A stretch of 64,000 nt of DNA from Tilletia caries (lineage: Eukaryota > Basidiomycota > Exobasidiomycetes > Tilletiales > Tilletiaceae): the NCBI GenBank assembly GCA_032718865.1, contig JALUTQ010000005.1:62001-126000 (forward strand). Direction: 5' to 3'. The notes under the pieces are model-generated. The model searched no databases and had not been told where the DNA came from. It was given only the letters and a program-made list of their open reading frames with translations. Each line of letters starts with the position of its first letter. Position 1 is the stretch's first letter. The position numbers and the translations under genes are program-made. Positions 2,493 through 28,533 of this stretch are shown here, in pieces.

Positions 2493-4115
2493 TCACTTGG
2501 GGGACGCCGCATTGGAGAGGATCTGTCGCAGGAATCCGATGCGAGGCTCGGGGAGCTGGGAAAGGGCACTCCAGGTGGAGAGCAAGGCAGGCGTCTTAGT
2601 CACCTCGAAGGCGATGACGCCTAGCTCGGCTCCCGAAAAGGTATCCTGATCGATCTGCATCAATGCCGAGAGAGAGATCTTTACCGCGTCTGACGCGCTG
2701 CGAGAAGCTCTCGTCTCCTTCATCTCCATCTCCATCCTCGTCTCCTCGAGCTTTACGAGTGCATTGACGGACCTGGCCACACTGGAGATCTCTTTGAGTG
2801 CGGAAGGCTTAGCCTTCTTTCCCCCTCCACCAGAGGGACTAGGCGCACTACGCTTGGACTTTGCACTCTGCATGAAACAAACAAATGATGGCAGCAATTA
2901 GTGTGAGAAAGGGACGCTCGGACGGATGTAGTGTAATCCCAAGCTTTAGATTGATTCCACAACTCACGGACTCTGTGTCAGACGTGCCCCATCCTTCATA
3001 ATACACCTCCTCCTCACTGCTATCGTTCACAACGATTGCAGCATCTGGAGCGGTGGCTGGGGTCGGAGGATCACGCGGATCAAGCGCATAGCTACCCGTC
3101 GCGGTACTTTCCGCCACGAGATCGTCCATCCGATCGTAGTACCAGAGCGGCGTACGTTTCCACTTCTTGTACGAGGGCTTAGCCTGAAACATGGTAATCA
3201 AATTGTTTGTTAGCAAATGTGTGCAGCGCTAGCGCTGACGCCTGACGGCTAGCGGCGATGAGCGAGGTGCACGTCCCAGCTGCAGAACACGGCTCAACCC
3301 AAAGACATCGTTCTCCCCTGATCTCACCTTGATCAGAGCTGCCCACACGTCGTCTGCAGCAGTAGCCAGGTTCAAGTCGGTGTCCCAGCCGAACCCAGAC
3401 TGACTGGCGAGGAATTTGACTTCCTTCCAGTTCGCTTTCAGCTGTAACAACAACCCAAGTTCAAAAAGGACATCAGTGTCAGCCTAGATTGTGACTTTAT
3501 CACTACTGTGGCACCACGCCTTGCGCCTCTCCCACCGCTCACCCCTCACAGGGAAAGGAAGCAGGGCGCGGTGCAGGCAGCATGGGTGCACTTCGGTAAG
3601 GCAGGGGCAATGTGTATTTGATGCTTACATTCTTAAAATGGTCCTGCACTCGCGGGGCTGTCTTCTCTCCTCCGACCTTTCTGATAGCTTCCAAGGCCGC
3701 TGCAGCTTTGTTCCAAGTTTGAAGCTAAAGATGCACAAGGGATAAGGCTCGTGTCAGCATGCGCGTTCGTGCATATCTAGATGCTAGCTGTCTGCTATGT
3801 AGAATAGTGCTTGAGACTCACCTTAAACCCGCCTTCGCCCATCTCTCCACTAAGCTTGGCGTCCTCCAAGATGCGGAGCAGGCATTCATCGTCCTTATTA
3901 TCCCAAACACAGGCTTCTCTCTTGACTTTGGGGGCTGGGGTGACAGGAGGAACTTGAGCAGTGGCATTGCCAGGGGGGACAGAAGCCGAGGGCACCGTAG
4001 CTGGAGTAGATTGCGTCGCCGCCGCAGTAGCCGCGTCCGGAGTGACAGGAACCGCCCGCGCGGGCGCAGGACGATGCGCGTTCGGAGTAGTGGGAATAAC
4101 CATCTTCGCGGGCAT
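2493..4115 (-). CDS. Myb/SANT-like DNA-binding partner of the Harbinger element
   Basis: This is the second protein usual in PIF/Harbinger elements, which binds the element ends and helps bring the transposase to the nucleus. Five exons read well on the minus strand: 4115-3822, 3724-3629, 3441-3328, 3183-2968 and 2867-2493, each with GT/AG borders. The N-terminus is Pro/Ala/Thr-rich; a Myb/SANT-like domain follows over exons 1-3 (ACVWDNKDDECLLRILEDAK, then TWNKAAAALEAIRKVGG, then KANWKEVKFLASQSGFGWD). The middle is acidic (DSSEEEVYYEGWG). The C-terminal exon has a basic stretch (SAKSKRSAPSP...GGKKAK) and a helical segment rich in E, K and R. It is convergent with the transposase, the same arrangement as the element at 56.9-61.2 kb. 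No frame break was seen, so this gene may be intact. Confidence 0.75.
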
Positions 4116-4485
4116 AATGATCCGTAGCGCTGCTGAGTGCTGAGTACTGAGTGTGTGTATGGCGAGGCGAGGTGCATATGTATACACAAAGGGAAGGGCA
4201 GGCGATACTGGCAACATGCCCAAGGCAGAGAAAAAAAGTTTTTCCATGAATTACAAAAATTGGTGTAATGGTGTTGTATCTGGAGAGTGGGCGCGAGGGC
4301 GCGCGCTCTGTGGGCCGACCACGGGAGGTGGGCCCAGAGAGCGCGAGAATTGTGAGTGAGCGCGCTCTGAAAATTCTGGGCCGCCGGCCCTGAAAATGCG
4401 CAACTGGACAGTCGCGCGCCTCATGTCGGCCCACCGAGCGCGCGCTCATTTTTCAAAGTGGGGGCGCTCGCAACTGGACAGGGCC
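4116..4485. other. Right flank of the first Harbinger element
   Basis: No gene is seen. The stretch is rich in GCGC and GAGCGCGC pieces, which could be the subterminal part of the Harbinger element. The motif CGCAACTGGACAG occurs twice, at about 4398 and 4469, some 70 bp apart. The second copy lies just before the Gypsy LTR, so the Harbinger terminus may have been there. Its left counterpart would be outside the window. Confidence 0.4.
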
Positions 4486-17212: not shown

Positions 17213-17597
17213 GGAAATTGATTCGGCCACAGACACTTTTTGATATGGCCACAGACAACCATACACGTGGCCGCCAGACCTTGGGAGTTGAGACCCAGCT
17301 GCAGTGCGATCACCAGTCACCGGTCACCACCCAGTATCACCAGTCACCACTCACCACAGGTTCTTCCTCTTCCTGCTTCACAAATATGTTGCTGGCTGAG
17401 TAAGGTGCGGATGCTGAGGTGGAAGAAGGCAGAAAGGGAGCGCATCAATTCTTGTGATCATGGGCGTCTGCTCACTGTGCTCAGGCAATCGGGGTGCGTC
17501 TCAAGCTGTTCTCTGGCGGTCACGTGTATGGTTGTCTGTGGCCATATCAAAATGTCTGTGGCCATATCAAAAAGTGTCTGTGGCCGAATCAATTTCC
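17213..17597. mobile_element. MULE-type MITE (385 bp), 9-bp TSD
   Basis: Terminal inverted repeats of about 44 bp begin GGAAATTGATTCGGCCACAG at both ends. The perfect 9-bp duplication ATCTTTGAC lies at 17204-17212 and 17598-17606. Nine-bp TSDs are usual for Mutator-like elements. The unit GTCTGTGGCCATATCAAAA is repeated near the right end. It interrupts gene A within a codon-consistent exon. Confidence 0.9.
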
Positions 17598-18039
17598 ATC
17601 TTTGACATCGAAAAATATCTCTTCGTCAAGGCGGACGCAAAAATTGCCAAGCTCGCTCTGGGATCCCTAGCACTAGAAATTGTGTCAGCGGGAAGCCGGC
17701 CCTCGAGAACTCCTACCCAAATCCGCGAAAAGCTTCGCACAATGTGCAAGCAATACGTCACCGAACGCGATGAGGAGACGGAAACATACCATTGGTGGAA
17801 TGCCTACCACAAAATGGTTTGCGCTCGGGAGCGGCAAACGAAGATGAGGCACGGCGAGGACGATGACATGGATGGCGAGGACCAGTGGGACGAGTGGGAG
17901 GAACGTGACGAAGATGAGGACGATGAATTGGCCGATGAGGATGAGTCGGACGACAGCAACGGGGAGGAAGAGGATGAAGGTGGCGACGAGGAGGAGGGCG
18001 AAGGTGGCGAAGATGGCGAAGATGGCGAAGGTGGCGAAC

Positions 18040-18440
18040 AGGAAGGCGACCTTGACCAGGAGGTTGCTGCCGATTTGGAGGACGACGTACACGTTGACCT
18101 GGAGGAGGGCGACATTGACCAGGAGGTCGCTGCTGAATCCGAGGACGAGATCGACATCGATCAGGAGGTTGCTGCTGAATCGGAGGACGAAGTACACGTT
18201 GACCTGGAGGAGGGCGACATTGACCAGGAGGTCGCTGCTGAATCCGAGGACGAGATCGACATCGATCAGGAGGTTGCTGCTGAATCGGAGGACGAAGTCG
18301 ACTTTGACCAGAAGATCCCTGCAGAAAGTGACGACGAGGGCGATGTTGACCTGGAGGAGGGCGACATTGACCAGGAGGTCGTTTCTGAATCCGAGGACGA
18401 GATCGACATCGGTCAGGAGGAGGTCGACCTTGACCAAAAG
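18040..18440 (+). repeat. Tandem acidic repeats within gene A
   Basis: A block encoding units such as GDIDQEVAAESEDEIDIDQ and EVHVDLEE repeats about four to five times, including one nearly exact duplication of roughly 100 bp (around 18100-18205 and 18205-18310). The product is a long Asp/Glu tract without other features. Confidence 0.85.
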
Positions 18441-19232
18441 TCAGGCGACTTTGGTCAGGCGATTACTGCCGGAAAGCTGATGAAGGCGGGACCTTCGGAG
18501 CGCGGCAAAACCGAGGAGGCAGAAGGTCGAGCGGACGGATCAGGAGGAGAGGACGAAGATGGCCGCGATGAGGTCGCTGACGGGATGGACATGGAGCAGG
18601 ACGACTTTCAAGACGTCGGACGGGAGAACCCAACGCAGGATCACCGGGTCGACGACGGTATAGAGGTGGATGACTGCAACGGCGACAAAGATAAGGATGG
18701 CGGCGACAAGCGAGAATGGAATCAATGCGAGAACAACCGGGCCATCCCCTCGACTGCACTCGTTTTCACAGCCAAACATGAGCCTGTCTTGTACGAGAAC
18801 AACAAGGACTGGCATGCCATAATTCCGACTGCTGCATGCACCGCTGCTAGCACTTCCTCTTTGGAGAACGGCAAGGAGTTGCAGGCTATCATCCCGACCG
18901 CAGCATGTACCACGGCAAGTGCTTCCTCGTCCTCCTCCACGGCCCTCATCTTGCATCAACAGGGCAGGGAAAAGCACAAGCACAAGCAAAACCACAAGCA
19001 CGACAAGGTGCGATCGAGTCGACATTCCACGAAGGACAAGAACGGCCTGCGGCGCACCAAAATTGTCGAGAAGGAGCGGACCAAACGACGCGAAGCCAAG
19101 TGGGAGGCCAAGGTTAAGATCAAGCAACAAGAACTCGTGTTCGACATGGTTTCTAAACAAGGCTTGCTGATCGAGCAAGTACTCCAGACGTTCGGATCGC
19201 CCTCGCGCTCTTCCGGTGCACCTACTTCCTAA

Positions 19233-19918: not shown

Positions 19919-20022
19919 GTTCGAAAGTAGTCTCATAGAATCAGACGTCCATGTGGACTGTGGTGTTGTTGCTATGCAGCAATGTTTGCAAAATTAGACG
20001 CCAGTGGGCGCCGGCAAACCGT

Positions 20023-20048
20023 CCGTAGGACGTCTGATTCCACGACGT
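20023..20048. repeat. Inner palindromic repeat, left
   Basis: The motif GGACGTCTGATTCCACG matches, inverted, the motif CGTGGAATCAGACGTCC near 26254. The left terminus carries the same core in opposite direction (ATCAGACGTCC near 19939), so the left 118 bp can fold back on itself. Confidence 0.75.
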
Positions 20049-20115
20049 AAGGAAATCGACACATTGCAATCCACGACCCAACACCATACGTCCATACCAT
20101 CCACTCATCAGCACC

Positions 20116-23100
20116 ATGAACCAAACACTCAATTCATCCACCAGTTACATGTCTTCCGAGCCCGACGACGTGTCCATGCTCTCTTCCCTTTCCAGTCTTT
20201 CCTCTTTGGAGCCTTTGGAAGAGCCAGTTCCAGCTCAAGCTCAGCCGCGACCTAAGGAACCGTCCAAGCGTCGTCGCCTTCAAGAGTCGGACATCGAATC
20301 GTTCTTCACCTTCCTGGACGAGCTCGGTGTCAGCTGCAGCAATCTCCTGCGCACGCTGTTCGACCCTGCATCCGTCAACCTGGACGACAAGGTCCAAAAG
20401 CAGATCCATCGACATGTTCGACCTTTCTTTTCAACCACAGCAGCAAGGAACTTCGTCAAGCAATCAAAGGGCGGGCGCAGAACGGCTCTTGCGATCGTAG
20501 TGGACGAGTTGCGGGCCGAGGGTAAAGGCGCTTCGAAGCTTCCTGAGCTTCGCCGGCCGTCAAGCATGAATCGTGGCGACAACATCCAGACCTATCGCTT
20601 CGGAGGCGCTGCCAACACCATTCGGACTCAACTACCCTTCACGTTTGCTGTGATCACAGCAATAGCCGGTGTCGGTGACGAGCAATCTGCTGTCGCGGTC
20701 GATCAAAGTCCCTCGGCCGTCGCATCTGTCGTTTCGACGCTCCCCCTCACCTCTCGTCTTGACAGGTCCGAACCGGGGTCGCGTCTTCCATCCCCGTCTC
20801 CTGAAGCTCGACAATCTGGAAGCACGGGCCAGCATCGGGCCGAAGAGGAGCGCAATCTCGAAGAACACGAGCTGGACGACATCTGGCAAGACATCGATGA
20901 AATTGGCCATCAACAGCCGTCTGCGGAGGACGAGGAGGGCGAGCCGAGCAGCAAACAGGCACCGGTATCCAAGCGCGGGAAGAGATCACCCATGGTTGTG
21001 AGTAAATATGAATGCTCTATTCTCTGCTCAACAAGCTCTAATGATGCTCCAATCGCTTGCGTCCACGCAGATCGCTATGGCTGCGACGATGATGCTACTG
21101 TTGGCTCGTAACGTGACGATCTCCCGATTTCAAAGGTCATTGGGACTCTTTCTCTTCGCATCTCGGACGGGACGCCGTGTGGTCGAGGTGCTCAGCAGGA
21201 TGGGGATGTCAGTCTCGTACCTTACGCTCCTCCGCACCATCCGGGAGCTTTCTCGATCGGCTCAGCATCGTGCCCGCTCAGCTTTACTCGACAAGACCAA
21301 GGTCTACTGCTTCGGATACGATAACATCAACTGGCAGACGAAGCATCGCAACAAGGGGTTCGGGGTCTCCAACCAAATGACAGCGGCAACGCACGGAGCT
21401 CTGTACGAAGTCGATACATCCGTGCAATTAAAGGACGGTCCACAGCACCCAACCTGTGATCCGAAGGTGTTCACCGATGCGCTCGGTGCGGACATGCCCA
21501 AGCCCACGACCGCAGTCACCAGCATGATCGAGGAGCTAGTGGCGAGCTCCCCTACCCGGAATCCTTGGCCGGAACTGCGGCGGCAACGAGACGAGTTACG
21601 GCAGAAGCCTTTACCCAAAGACTTACATCCTGCAGACCTCCTTATGGGCGAAAAAGACGAAGAATATCTCGCCCGCATATTGATCAGCCACGCGCAGAAA
21701 CTATTTTTGCAACAGCACACGTATTTGGGGTTCGATCCACCACCTGCGCCTCCGCAGATATGGCCGTTGAAACCTCGAAAGACCAACATCATTCCTCTTT
21801 CTGTCCTTGATGTCGACGAAGGATCAGTCAAAGGAAACATCGAGGTTTTCGACCAATTCTTCTTGCAGCACCTCAAGCTGTCGGACGAGGTTTGGAAGAC
21901 TCGGATCTGGCCAGTTGTTGCGGATGGTTACACTGTCAAAAGAATCAGGTCTGCACAGAAAATGCGTCGCATCGAACGATCGGAGAGATCCTTCGATATT
22001 TTCTCCGCGCAGCAGCCATGGGCAGCGCCATGGCACTTGATGGTGAGTCTGGACATCTTAAAATCTTTCCCTCTCCCGCTTTCGCTCGTTAAAGTTGATC
22101 CATTATCCCCTTTCCGTCTTCAGTATGCCTACGTTCGCTGCATTTTCATCAACTATGGAGGCTCATGGGAGCACTCCACTCGGTTCGACATCCGGACGCT
22201 GGCCGAACGCGTCGGTATGCGTAATCTTCTCTCACAGCCACACAACTTCCACGACTCGGCCCGCTTCATGCAGTTCTGGTTCAGCGCCGCGTGCTGTTCG
22301 ATCATCTCAGCGGCATTACGAAAGCACGTAGCGTCCGTCTCAACCTCAGCTTCCGCTCATCCGTCCTCTGCCTCATCATCGGCGCGATCATTGTCGCAGG
22401 ACGCGGGTGCTTCAGCACGCCACCAAGACAACGAGGCGCGGACACGGGTGCCAGGTCCCGCCTACCGGCAGAATGAATTCAAGGACGCTGTCGACCGTGA
22501 AACGTTCCTCAAGATCAGCGAAGAGGCTATTCGTGAGGTTGTGCGACTTGATGCGGATCAATATCTGCTGGAGCAAAAGGCGAAAGGAGCGGAGCGCGAT
22601 GACATCAACCTATTCAGCAGGAGCATGTTCGTCGACATTGGCCTTTTTATCGAGCTGCAAGCGTGCATCTCCGCAGGTGATCCCGGTCGTCTGGTCATAG
22701 CGATGAAGCAACTGGTGCCTCGGTTTCAAGCCACCGGTCAGCACAACTACGTGTCTGAGCTCTTGGAGATCCTCGTCACTTTGCACTTTGAATCACCACC
22801 GGCTCTAAGAGCGATCATGCTCGCAAGCTTGCTCGTCAACACCAAGGGCCACGCCGACTCGTTCATGCCCACCGACCTTCTTCAAGAAAACTTCGTCTTC
22901 GATCTCAAGCACACTTGGCCTGTGGGTGGAACTCCCAAATCACTCCAGTACAAGGGTTTCATCGGTTCTCTGTTGCAGATCCTCGCCGATCTGAAGTTCG
23001 GGTTCTGGAAGGATCTCGGAATTGCAGCGCAGAATCAGACACATTTGGACAAGAAGCGGGCCTCGACCATTCAGGCGTTACAAGGAGACTTCAATCGCGG

Positions 23101-23479
23101 CTCTGTCTTCGAATGGCATTGCACAGGACGTCAGAGCAACGCATTCGAGCTCATCAGAGGAGAGGCGGTTCGAGTCAAGCGCGCAGCACTGCAGGCTAGC
23201 GGTGAAAGTACCAAATCCGCTCGGCAGCTCAAGAATATTGCTTGCGACCTGTTCGCCAGCGGCATGCTCGCTCTCCAAGACACTGCTTCTCGCAGCGGAG
23301 CATTTTCTAGGTGGTGTATTCGGCGGGCTGCTGCGATGGGGAAGGAGCGTGAGGACGAATTGAGTGATGAGGCAAGTGGCGATGAGGACATGGAGGGTGA
23401 CAATGAAGGCATGTTTTCCTACGCGGGAATGTCGGCCAACCTCGACGGGGTCCAGGAGCTGGAAGATGACGAACTATGA
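20116..23479 (+). CDS. DUF6589-family protein, probable transposase
   Basis: Three exons (20116-20997, 21071-22042, 22124-23479) joined by phase-0 introns give 1069 residues with no frame break. The N-terminus is Ser-rich and disordered, followed by a helical region. Family-type blocks are FGYDNINWQTKHRNKG (Asp about 378), VVADGYTVKRIRSAQKM (Asp about 579; many relatives have GDQ-T-x-x-R-I/L-R here), FMQFWFSAACC, and TGQHNYVSELLEIL with TDLLQENFVFD (Glu about 873). The spacing of D, D and E resembles an RNase H-fold transposase, but this assignment is my inference. The C-terminus is acidic (SDEASGDEDMEGDNEG). The start ATG lies about 70 bp inside the inner repeat and fits the exon. The gene converges with the helicase within the same element. 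Confidence 0.8.
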
Positions 23480-23676
23480 CGAACGGTTTCCCATTTTCGC
23501 TCGAGCAAAAGTACAACATCACCTCTTCGAGATTTCAAAAAGCTTCTTCATCCACTCCTGCGCCCACTCCTCTCCTTCGGTCGGCTTTCGACTCTCTAGC
23601 CAACGCTTCGAGGGACAAACCCTGCTATCGCGCCGGTGCCCTCTTGTCTCGAGATTGGCTGTTGGGTCGTTCTGGT

Positions 23677-26160
23677 TCACTGCCTTGCAAACGGAACAGG
23701 TTGACGTCTGAAGGTGGTATACAGGCTGGATGAGCTCACGTTCCTTGCTAACTTCTGTTTCCCTAGCAGGCAGCACTTGCTTGACGCTTTACTCACCCGA
23801 GAACCAGATGCTTCTGCAGCTTGAACCCGCTGAAGAGACTCTTGCGCTGAACGAGCATCTCTTTTTGCCTCCCTCCTCTTCCTCGCTTCCTCTTGCTGTA
23901 GTCGCCGCTCCTCACCCGCCTTGTCTTTGGACTCTTGCCGTCTCGTCTCCTCTTCTTCCAAGACTCCCCTCACAATGTCTTCGAGGCCCGGCAACACGTC
24001 CGACTTGAACCGCATTCCAACAAATGATCCCAGTCGTGAGTCATTCTCGTTGAAGCCGTGTGCGATTGTCTTGAGGTTGTTGACTAATGAGTCGATGTCC
24101 TGAAAAATCAGGAAGGCATTGATTCCCAATCGTCCTGCTCGTCTACTTGCCTTCCAAGAAGCCTCCCATTCCGTCGACCTCCAGTCCTCCAGTCGCGAGC
24201 GCAAAACCTTCTGCATCGCCATAATGCCCGGCAGACTCGGAATGATCTCCTTGCTCGGTATCAGCTCCTCGGGTATCTCGGAGAGCGGAAGCGGATCGCA
24301 TGTCGAACAGCAACGAAGCTTTCGGTCCTTCTCAATCGGCCCGCTGGACGAGTACAGGTTGAGGGGGTCGGGAAGACTTTCCGCAGATGGCTGCTCGAGG
24401 TGCTGGAGAATCAATCGCCGAACGCAAGCATCGCGTCGAATGCCATGGCTGGCCAAGGCAACCAGCTCGTCGTCCACAATCTTCTTTGCGACTACCGTGC
24501 TTTGTCCCGTCCGCATCGATTCAACATCGCTCTCGAGGGTCACATCTGCGATATCGTCTTCTTCTTGATCCAGGATTGGAGGAAGGTCACCGTTGTCTGC
24601 GAGGGCCTTTTTGGTATCGGCATCAAGGTACGATGGCTCCACCAGCATGGTACATTCAGCCTCATCGGAAAAATCCCTTCCACAACGTCCAACTCGCTGC
24701 CAGAATGCAGATACGCCGCCAAACAAACCAACCTGCATCGCCCGCAAGACCAGTCGGCAATCGGCGCCCATACCAAACGCGTCCGTGCAGATTGCGATGA
24801 GGCATTGTCGAAGGTCGAGACGCTTGCGAATCTCGGTGCGATGCCCTTCCGACATGTCCGCATAAAACACGTCGACCACGTCATCGAAGCCGGCTCGCTT
24901 GCTCCATTTGCTGATGTGAGTGTACATGTTCGTTGCAAGATCCTTGTTGTTGACGTAAATAAGGGTGACAGGGAAGTTCTTAGTCCGCTCCTCAATGTCT
25001 CCACCTCGCTCCCACAGCTCGGGCAACAGGCTGAGAATGTCTAAGAAGGACTTGGGAGAGTATCGCATTGGCAGGATGCGCAGGTAGAGGTTCGGTCGGT
25101 TGGTTCCGACATCGACGATGAGTGGATCCGTGAGTTCGAGGGTCGTCTCACATGCTCGTTGCGCTTGCTTCGTTAACGTCGCTGACATTACGACTGTGGG
25201 AACTTGCAGATGCCGTCGTACATCCCCAAGCTGCAGGAACTTTGGGCGAAAGTCGCGCCCCCATTGGTCGAGCGTATGCGCCTCGTCGAAAATGAATGCA
25301 GCAGCGCGGCTACGGAACCGGTCATGCATTAAGACCTTGTTCAAGAAGGCTCCTTCGGTCAAGGACTCTGCGGTCGCAAACACGAGGTTGTATTTGCCAT
25401 CACGAATCTCGGTGAGGAGCGCGTCGCTCTTGTGCGTTGCATCAACGTACGTCGCTCGAGTTCCAAATCTGAGTGTTTCCAAAGGAGCATGAGCGCATTT
25501 ACTGACGCATACATCGACGATTTCCGAAGCAGATCCTCACCGTGAAGCAAAATCCGAGACCAGTAACTGGAGCGGCTCCGCCACGATAACGACCCCGTCA
25601 GGGAAGAGCTTCTGGACGTAATCGATGATCTCTCCCTTGCCCGTCGACGTAGGTGCCTTGACGATAACGTCCTTTCCGTTCCGTACGCCGTCCGTCGCGA
25701 CCAGCTGGTATTGCTTCGGATCGTATCTGGGAGAAGGCGAGCTGTTCTGAAGCAGAAACAGAGTCCGAAAGCAGCGCTGTGAAAGAAGATGAAGAAAGAG
25801 GGTAGCAGAAGGAGGAAGGGAGCGGTGGGAGGGAGGAGAAAAGACATGAAGAACAAAAATCAGCGATGAAAGCCCTGAATGTTCAAAATGCTCGCTGTCT
25901 CCTGTGAAGAGTCAATGGTCAGGTCAACAAATCAAGTTCCGGGCTCATACCTTTGCACGCTTCGACCATGGCCCTTCTTCCTCCCTGTCCGATTGGGCTC
26001 GTTTCCGTTTGCCCAAGCGACCCAACAACGAAGACGGCAGGTGATCCTCAGTCGTGACTGGCGAGGCAGAGAGGGTAGATCCCGAAGGTGTCCGGATCGC
26101 ACTCAAGTGCGCGCCAATAGCATCCGTAGCCTTCCAGCTGTACGAGCGTATGGCTGGCAT
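23677..26160 (-). CDS. RecQ-like superfamily 2 DNA helicase
   Basis: Three exons read on the minus strand: 26160-25951, 25746-25541 and 25468-23677, giving about 735 residues. Motifs in order: a Q-motif-like YDPKQYQLVATDG, motif I KAPTSTGKGEII, motif II FIFDEAHTLDQWG (DEAH), motif III VMSATLT, motif V ICTDAFGMGAD, and motif VI FWQRVGRCGRD. A RecQ-type zinc region follows (CVRRLILQHL...CCSTCDPLP). The C-terminal part is a long charged helix rich in E, R and K. Motif I has Gly where Ser or Thr normally follows the Lys (GKG instead of GKS/T), which is unusual. The first exon carries a basic segment (GKRKRAQSDREEEGPWSKR), likely a nuclear signal. The helicase would unwind DNA during transposition or repair of the donor site. 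Confidence 0.85.
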
Positions 26161-26249
26161 TGTGTTTTATCTGGAAATGATGGAGATGTGGTTGATGTTG
26201 ATGGTGAGGTGTATTTGCTGTTGCACTGCTCTATGTGTCATTACTCATT

Positions 26250-26335
26250 AGTGCGTGGAATCAGACGTCCTGAAGGACGGCTGACGCTCTCTCTGCGGCG
26301 GCTAAATTTTTACCACGTGGAAATTCCTGACCTGG
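26250..26335. repeat. Inner palindromic repeat, right
   Basis: CGTGGAATCAGACGTCC followed by an AGGACGG and GGCGGCTAAATTTTT stretch. Read inverted, it aligns with about 80 bp of the left end (20048 back to 19975). It marks where the right end of the element would be if it were as short as the left. Confidence 0.7.
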
Positions 26336-28210
26336 GTGCGTACCTTACCAGAGTGTTCCCCTAACTTTTTCGCCTTGTTGAATAACAGGTCGTTGGGGGC
26401 TGGGAGTGGGATTTAAATACAGACTTAGTCAACAAAGTTAAGTAGCAGCAACTTACGCCTTGGAACCATAGTGACCTGGCTGTCGGCTGAAGCCCAGAGG
26501 CCAGGGTGTCCCTCAGACTCGATGTGGACCTCAGACCCTTATGACCTGGTAGAGATGTGCGAAGACGTGACTGGGGGGGCGTCCTCTCCCCCTCCCCTTT
26601 TCGCGAATCTTTTGTATCAGAAAGGTCACCAAATCTCAGCCCAGCACGGCTACGCAGAAGCTCAAGGTAGCTTCGCTACCCTTCGTCTGCTTCGCCATGC
26701 GGCTGCGACTTGCGATCGTAGCTACGAGCATCTATATCATTGTCCATGTAAAATTTTGAATGTTGATCAAACTTGCGTGAAAAAGGGATTGAGGAACTTC
26801 ACACACGTAATCATTCCGCACGGCTGTATCTACCAAGGAAGCAGAAAGCAAAGAATGATATGTCATATGATGGCTTCGCGCAGAGAGAGACAATTGACAA
26901 ACAAGACGGAGAATAGCTGCGAGCGCAATGAAGATAAGATTAAAAGACTGATGAGAAAAAAGCGTGAGGCTAATGCAGAAGGAGAGGTTAGGGGATAGGA
27001 AACATAAGCGGCCGGGGAAGCAGACGGAAGAGACGTAGAAGACGGGTGAAGGCTGAGACCGGAGACGAATGGGCAAAAGAATGCCAACAGAGCTTGATGC
27101 GAAGGTAAGGGAATATAGAAGAGGCAAGAGCACAGCAGAAAGAAAGTCAGATCAGGTCAGGTCAGGTCAGGTCCAGTGTTGAACATACTATTGGAGTATG
27201 GAACCCTGGGCGACTTGAGAGAGGAGAAGCACAATGGTGACGCCGAAGGTGGCCACCGACGACGGACACATTGACCTCGGCGGGCTTGACGTTGGCAATG
27301 TCGAAGTGGAAGGTGGAGGCGCGTGTGATGTCAAAGGTGGTGACCCGTGACACAGAACAGACTGTACGAGATATGCAGTGATGAGCACCATTTTTAACTC
27401 ATGAAGCGTCAGAGCCGTTAGAAGAAGGAGAGGGGGTCGGGGAAAAACCCACCGCTTGGGGTCGTAAAGACTTGAAGACCTCGGCGACGATGGGCACGGT
27501 GGAGTTGACGGGGTTGGAGATGACGAGGTGGTGTGCTTTGGGAGCAACCTTGGCAGCGGCTTTGTCGAGGGAGAGAGCTGTCCGATGGGGCATGGTGAGT
27601 GAGGAAAGTCAGTCTACTCATCTTGACGACGTCGACCGGATTCATAAGAGCAGAGAGCTGAAAAACGAATGGGTGAGTAAGGACCTAACCCGGAGCACCT
27701 GATGCAGATGCGCGTATAAACACGAGGCTCACCTTGGATGACAATTCGGGAGTGCTGACTGCTGGGCCGGACTCAGAATGGGAACAAAGCAGAGACTGGT
27801 ATGGGTAAGTGGTATCAGCCATCAGGTTAAGCAAGAAAAAGCAAAACAGCGGTGAGCATCATTAACTTGAACCTTGGTGAGCAGAGAGCGGTTAAAAAGA
27901 AATCGAGAGGGGGATTGTTCAATTCGCATGATGCTTGTCGGGCTTCGATGGAAGCGTGAAGAAAGGCTGGCGGTGTTGGTTGTCGTCTGTCGAGTGTCGA
28001 AATGAACTGATTACGTATGCAAGATTTCTGCACTCTGTGCTTATGTAAGGAAAACCAAACTTTGGCTCAAGGACAGATCAGTCAATTCTGATGCTACAAC
28101 CACGAAACCTGTGCCAGAAGTTGCAGGACTAGATTTGGTCAAGGGTCTACTGATTCAGAATGGTGTGTTGTGTTGGTAGTTGCGAAGAAAAGTCCCAAAC
28201 TACGAGCCTG
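26336..28210. other. Extra right arm of the DUF6589 element
   Basis: About 1.9 kb between the inner and outer right repeats. Apart from the malate dehydrogenase fragment (27185-27610) no gene is recognised. A stretch CCCCTAACTTT recurs, inverted, near both edges (26360 and 28265), so this arm could be an inserted or recombined related element. A short TCAGG repeat array occurs near 27150. Confidence 0.5.
27185..27610 (-). pseudogene. Malate dehydrogenase fragment
   Basis: Two pieces of a mitochondrial-type malate dehydrogenase are readable. The first is HHLVISNPVNSTVPIVAEVF, the loop with the substrate-binding Asn region. The second, after an apparent intron, is TTFDITRASTFHFDIANVKP and AEVNVSVVGGH. 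One base too many after VGGH puts FGVTIVLLLSQVAQGS into another frame. The N-terminal nucleotide-binding part and the C-terminal catalytic part are absent. It is an inert captured piece lying within the right arm of the DUF6589 element. Confidence 0.82.
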
Positions 28211-28533
28211 AATGGCAAAAAGCTTACGGCCGTAAGGCGGGAGCCGCCCTATAACCCCTTAACTAAAGTTAGGGGAAATGTAATCTCTGTCCTTCACAGA
28301 CGTCTGATGCTATGAGACTAGTTCGAAAGTATATTTTGATTGGGATGATAAGTCTTGAGGAGGTTCTTGAAGTGTCGAGGCCGGGCCAGAAGTGATATTT
28401 CTTCTGGCGCGCTGATCTACGACCTGGACTGCTCGCAAGACCTGGAACTTGCCTGCGGAGAGGTTGACATATACATGTCCGCGACAACAAAGGAGCAAGA
28501 GCAATGTGTTCCGACATACGGAACACTCACAGT

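Follow-up and report, generated by a model that had tools for sequence, protein, structure and literature searches.

AcademH transposons were reportedly described by Kojima in 2020 (Mobile DNA 11:15). In the portions of the later literature available to us, AcademH elements have 9- or 10-bp target-site duplications and AcademX elements 3- or 4-bp ones, a division tied to helicase and nuclease (PMC10045372); AcademH elements occur at low copy number in Basidiomycota, Ascomycota and Mucoromycota, and DEAD and Helicase_C are given as domains of AcademH, KolobokH and Helitron (PMC10799480). Similar excerpts count Academ as one of 17 DDE superfamilies (PMC10294476) and present KolobokH as fungal and encoding a RecQ helicase (PMC9587614). 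Here we examined 64,000 nucleotides of Tilletia caries (assembly GCA_032718865.1, contig JALUTQ010000005.1, positions 62,001 to 126,000; hereafter the window), in which a unit at 19928-28320 carries a DUF6589 gene and a RecQ-like helicase gene. Since the helicase, the 9- or 10-bp duplication and the fungal host all coincide with AcademH, we file this unit, by described features and with a probability of roughly 0.85, as a DNA transposon of the AcademH lineage whose predicted DDE transposase is the DUF6589 protein. With AcademH already described, the unit represents no new type of element, and the view of the original prediction, made from the letters of the window, that a transposon carrying its own helicase would be unusual is not supported, given AcademH with its 9-10-bp duplications and KolobokH with its RecQ helicase.

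The unit is bounded by 22-bp inverted ends that are alike at 21 of 22 positions, TAGTCTCATAGAATCAGACGTC at 19928-19949 on the plus strand and its near-inverse at 28299-28320 on the minus strand, and a perfect 9-bp duplication, GTTCGAAAG, abuts both of them (19919-19927 and 28321-28329). Together with the convergent gene pair that they enclose, these ends and duplications confirm the predicted unit and support its insertion as one piece. Both ends come from an end search and a genome pattern count, in which perfect matches to the 22-bp end (allowing A or C at position 12) lie at four sites of the 38.1-Mb genome, which are the two ends each of the window copy and a second copy, and matches with two or three mismatches at 13 further sites; the reversed-pattern control gave no match in the same 38.1 Mb. 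A 19-bp degenerate form of the end has two matches in the window (0.06 expected), and these are the two ends of the unit. The second copy (L039, C5:161204-169231) lies about 71 kb away on the same contig and is 98% identical to the window copy, with different flanks and its own perfect 9-bp duplication, TGCGACGCG. It also holds two nested insertions absent from the window copy, both interrupting its DUF6589 gene: one of 775 bp (element positions 1710-2484, ends about TAAGGAAGAGCACGGAGT, 8-bp duplication CTGCAGAC) and one of 792 bp (positions 3571-4362, ends about AAGGTTGT, 9-bp duplication GCAACTGGT).

The segment 26323-28277 (1955 bp) of the unit is a copy of a dispersed repeat of about 1.95 kb, with at least 40 near-full-length matches elsewhere in the genome at 97-99%, a lower bound obtained with 39 of 175 candidates scored. 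As it is dispersed genome-wide and absent from the second copy, we rejected it as a component of the element and regard it as a later insertion, around which no clear target duplication was seen in the window. Hence the predicted extent was right at its ends, with this foreign insertion left unseparated inside, and the transposon proper measures about 6.4 kb. The repeat begins about ATTCCTGACCTGGGTGCG and finishes about GTTAGGGGAAT, its longest stop-free frame has 189 codons, and several of its matches lie in head-to-tail arrays (C1:945013-953733, C5:630281-638020). Inner copies of the end motif, GAATCAGACGTC, are present at 20028-20040 (minus) and 26258-26269 (plus), each in inverted orientation relative to the end nearest to it and, with the repeat discounted, only a short distance away; they are possible candidates for extra transposase binding sites.

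Across the genome, a matching duplication of 9 or 10 bp flanks the inverted ends in 17 of the 23 gene-bearing copies examined, the window copy included. Both ends were located in 20 copies, and the 17 duplications among them comprise eight exact 9-bp ones and one matching at 8 of 9 positions (window, L039, L040, which is the 8-of-9 case, L042, L045, C6, C39, C40 and C13:235031) as well as eight exact 10-bp ones (C35:651263, C27:1146113, C13:491429, C13:495129, C25:115017, C28, C36:1021129 and C27:1113934). In the other three (C4:400304-407329, L043 and C33:194962) the duplication was unmatched, the C33:194962 copy having a degenerate left end and a right end placed solely by its TAGTCTCG; for L041 and L044, and for the C23 copy on its right side, no boundaries could be set. 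For four copies (window, L039, L040 and L042) the ends emerged from a search free of any assumed end sequence, and for the remaining copies they were sought with a TAGNCT start, so that the shared start is partly by construction; the L045 ends agree over just 8 bp. Duplication length follows the end type, with 9 bp in all eight copies with TAG[T/G]CTC ends and 10 bp in eight of the nine duplication-bearing copies with TAGTCTGGT ends, the exception being the C6 copy with 9 bp. For this C6 copy no empty site was recovered: its left flank matches C28:166221-167480 in an alignment that ends about 37 bp short of the insertion point, and its right flank is unmatched.

We also found gene-less derivatives with the same kinds of ends. 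Allowing up to one mismatch, a genome search for the end TAGTCTGGTMACACCAGACC gave 195 places, against none for the reversed control. Ten inverted pairs with TAGTCTGG ends, spaced by 0.53 to 2.6 kb, were chosen by eye from the first 100 of these 195 places. An exact 10-bp duplication flanks eight of them, and no matching duplication was found for C32:1040829 and the 2.6-kb C1:1449289. A 0.72-kb derivative with L043-family ends has a 9-bp duplication, ACTCTATAC, and a C33 derivative (948808 to about 950440) with one altered end was counted as a miss, which brings the matching duplications to 9 of the 12 derivatives examined. Gene-less elements measuring about 0.53 or 0.85 kb carry the end type of the 10-bp duplications at places across the genome, e.g., at C5:2342583-2343113. 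The gene-less derivatives are consistent with mobilisation in trans.

The DUF6589 gene lies on the plus strand and gives the predicted open frame of 1069 residues once two introns are spliced out. Exon 1 (20116-20997) ends at a junction shared with the database protein P0010, and the second junction, between exon 2 (21071-22042) and exon 3 (22124-23479), agrees with P0002. The frame at 21008-23476 matches Pfam PF20231 (DUF6589) with an E value of 6.6e-56, and the closest protein relatives are from Tilletia, among them a 99% identical T. controversa fragment and, for the L040 protein, a relative at 95%. The aspartates of YDN (21320-21322) and of ADG, or GDQ in relatives (21923-21925), both in exon 2, and the glutamate of DLLQE or DLVQE (22886-22888), in exon 3, rank among the most conserved acidic residues; all three are present in 54 of 62 alignment rows, 56 of the 62 having letters at all three columns, and seven other acidic columns are also at least 90% conserved over the 62 rows. 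In the two AlphaFold models of DUF6589, the conserved D, D and E fall at the expected catalytic positions, and the prediction is of an RNase H-like fold containing a helical insertion, with a triad D74/D272/E563 (P0002 numbering). Both models align best with Hermes and then with other DDE recombinases, and Foldseek alone gave no significant match. Hence, the predicted structures and the conserved residues make it well supported that DUF6589 is a likely RNase H-fold DDE transposase, in agreement with the original prediction. No relative turned up when viral contigs were scanned once with a single DUF6589 pattern.

The helicase gene is convergent to the DUF6589 gene, on the minus strand, and carries DEAD and Helicase_C domains. 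Its three-exon model is open over the predicted 735 residues, the first splice being one of three open choices: exon 1 (25951-26160) is modelled; exon 2 (25541-25746), with modelled splices and a start that is one of these three choices, holds the Walker A motif APTSTGKGE; and exon 3 (23677-25468), supported by domain and RecQ-model matches, holds the DEAH box, motif VI and the stop. Against the RecQ family model TIGR00614 the protein gives an E value of 1.8e-31, and among solved structures the WRN helicase is its best relative. Since both its score (109.5 bits) and that of the full-length L040 helicase (173.3 bits) are below the TIGR00614 cut-off of 219.8, we call these proteins RecQ-like rather than standard RecQ. 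The Walker A motif reads APTSTGKGE in the window and second copies, SPTSTGKGQ in L041 and APTGSGKGY in L043, and has the canonical GKS or GKT in L042, L045, L046 and L040; GKG thus stands in place of GK[S/T] at the end of the motif in several subfamilies, others being canonical. Pfam scans, which covered open reading frames of at least 115 residues, found only DUF6589, DEAD and Helicase_C over the curated cut-off in nine frames of the window element and both L040 proteins. In a set of eight additional frames, which included six small frames from the window element, no other family exceeded its cut-off; the scans of the window element and L040 thus contained no nuclease gene, the AcademX marker.

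The pairing of the two genes extends across the genome, which holds 48 DUF6589 loci (merged matches, fragments included). With the window helicase as query, a RecQ-like match lies within 5 kb in 41 of them, convergent in all 41, where chance adjacency would give 0.64 loci with the 51 helicase loci found by this query. With a second helicase query C35:432549 joins them, again in convergent orientation, so that the helicase neighbour expected by the original prediction is found at 42 of 48 loci. DUF6589 loci of the kind named beforehand as speaking against the prediction do exist, as a minority: 6 of 48 have no helicase match (C1:1389758, C3:1466037, C13:496601 and three on C40), and 3 of the 20 copies with both ends located have no matching duplication. 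Across ten copies, DUF6589 and helicase similarities covary (Spearman 0.67, permutation p 0.0006), that is, the two proteins diverged together. Helicase matches of the same kind also occur at C21:658479-660112 and C34:1305082-1305828 without DUF6589 nearby.

In the mechanism that we propose, the DUF6589 protein would bind the TAGNCT ends and cut them via its DDE active site, and the cut ends would be joined to target cuts staggered by 9 or 10 bp; the RecQ-type helicase probably assists in trans, unwinding DNA at the ends or at a repair step, a role drawn from the maintained pairing alone. We infer a cut-and-paste rather than a replicative chemistry. The helicase could instead be a passenger on an element moved by DUF6589 alone, which would be compatible with the AcademH filing. 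Such a role would fit the altered Walker A of some subfamilies, as well as the perfect duplications of gene-less derivatives and of a gene-bearing copy without helicase match (C13:495129-500155, 10 bp), but derivatives can be served in trans, and convergent pairing at 42 of 48 loci with joint divergence over distant subfamilies suggests selection keeping the pair, so that we find a passenger unlikely. A far broader reading takes DUF6589 as the Hermes-like DDE catalytic domain of the whole Academ superfamily, with an invariant His that ties Academ to hAT, P, MULE and Kolobok, and has it partnered, over the whole of fungal evolution, by a RecQ helicase that works inside the transposition reaction, melting the ends or driving a replicative route absent from other DDE transposons; this we consider doubtful.

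Other readings would detach the unit from AcademH or from transposons altogether. It could belong to a separate, unnamed DDE superfamily that acquired its RecQ helicase independently of Academ, its resemblance to AcademH being confined to a helicase and 9-10-bp duplications. KolobokH is a precedent for this, as another DDE superfamily with a RecQ helicase, and the likeness to AcademH rests on described features and not on comparison with Academ sequences; yet helicase, 9- or 10-bp duplication and fungal host coincide with what the available descriptions give for AcademH, and we judge a separate superfamily quite improbable. KolobokH itself, in the parts of its description available a fungal DDE transposon with a RecQ helicase, shares these features with the present element. 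However, Kolobok duplications are TTAA, whereas the duplications here are 9-10 bp and varied in sequence, which contradicts this assignment. Moreover, the KolobokH motif C/DxxH is absent here between the second D and the E: the His is present in 62 of 62 rows, and position -3 from it is G in 53, A in 8 and H in 1, i.e., G or A in 61 of 62. A Kolobok affiliation is therefore barely conceivable. Nothing specific favours a segmental duplication or a chance pair of fungal genes, apart from the location of the two closest copies about 71 kb apart on one contig; their flanks and 9-bp duplications differ, and these differences, together with duplications that match in 17 of 23 examined copies with genes and 9 of 12 without, already contradict an origin without a transposon, which we regard as next to impossible.

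The transposase reading has consequences for annotation. Pfam DUF6589 names many hypothetical proteins in mushroom genomes, and the family now gains a probable function, that of a transposase, so that annotators could mask these mushroom genes or assign them to transposons. Schizophyllum commune and Mycena are among the fungi with DUF6589 proteins. With its many divergent paired copies, their clean ends and the gene-less derivatives, the genome makes a role of RecQ in DDE transposition directly testable. Elsewhere in the window, a 590-residue frame at 17460-19232 has an acidic repeat region (about 18040-18420) with units of 21 to 147 bp, and no Rfam family reached its gathering score in the window.

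Compared with known systems, the protein is a member of Pfam PF20231, which Pfam lists as a family of unknown function. Our literature search returned no paper linking DUF6589 or PF20231 with transposons, the sole match for PF20231 being an optics paper, and nothing on Tilletia with Academ; the text consulted of PMC12730594, PMC9970103, PMC8290104 and PMC12210899 was silent here as well. Hermes, a hAT transposase with an RNase H core and a helical insertion before the catalytic Glu, is the best fold match of both models, at 6-10% identity. Unlike hAT transposons, which have 8-bp duplications and are not known to carry a helicase, the present copies have 9-10-bp duplications and a helicase. The portions of the AcademH descriptions available contain neither the name DUF6589 nor the near-fixed choice of 9 or 10 bp by end type, and no difference from AcademH emerged from them in a comparison by described features rather than by transposase sequence. 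In those portions AcademH is, like the present element, a fungal DNA transposon with a DEAD and Helicase_C helicase and 9- or 10-bp duplications, and the nuclease that marks AcademX (PMC10045372) is missing from the scanned frames of the window element and L040.

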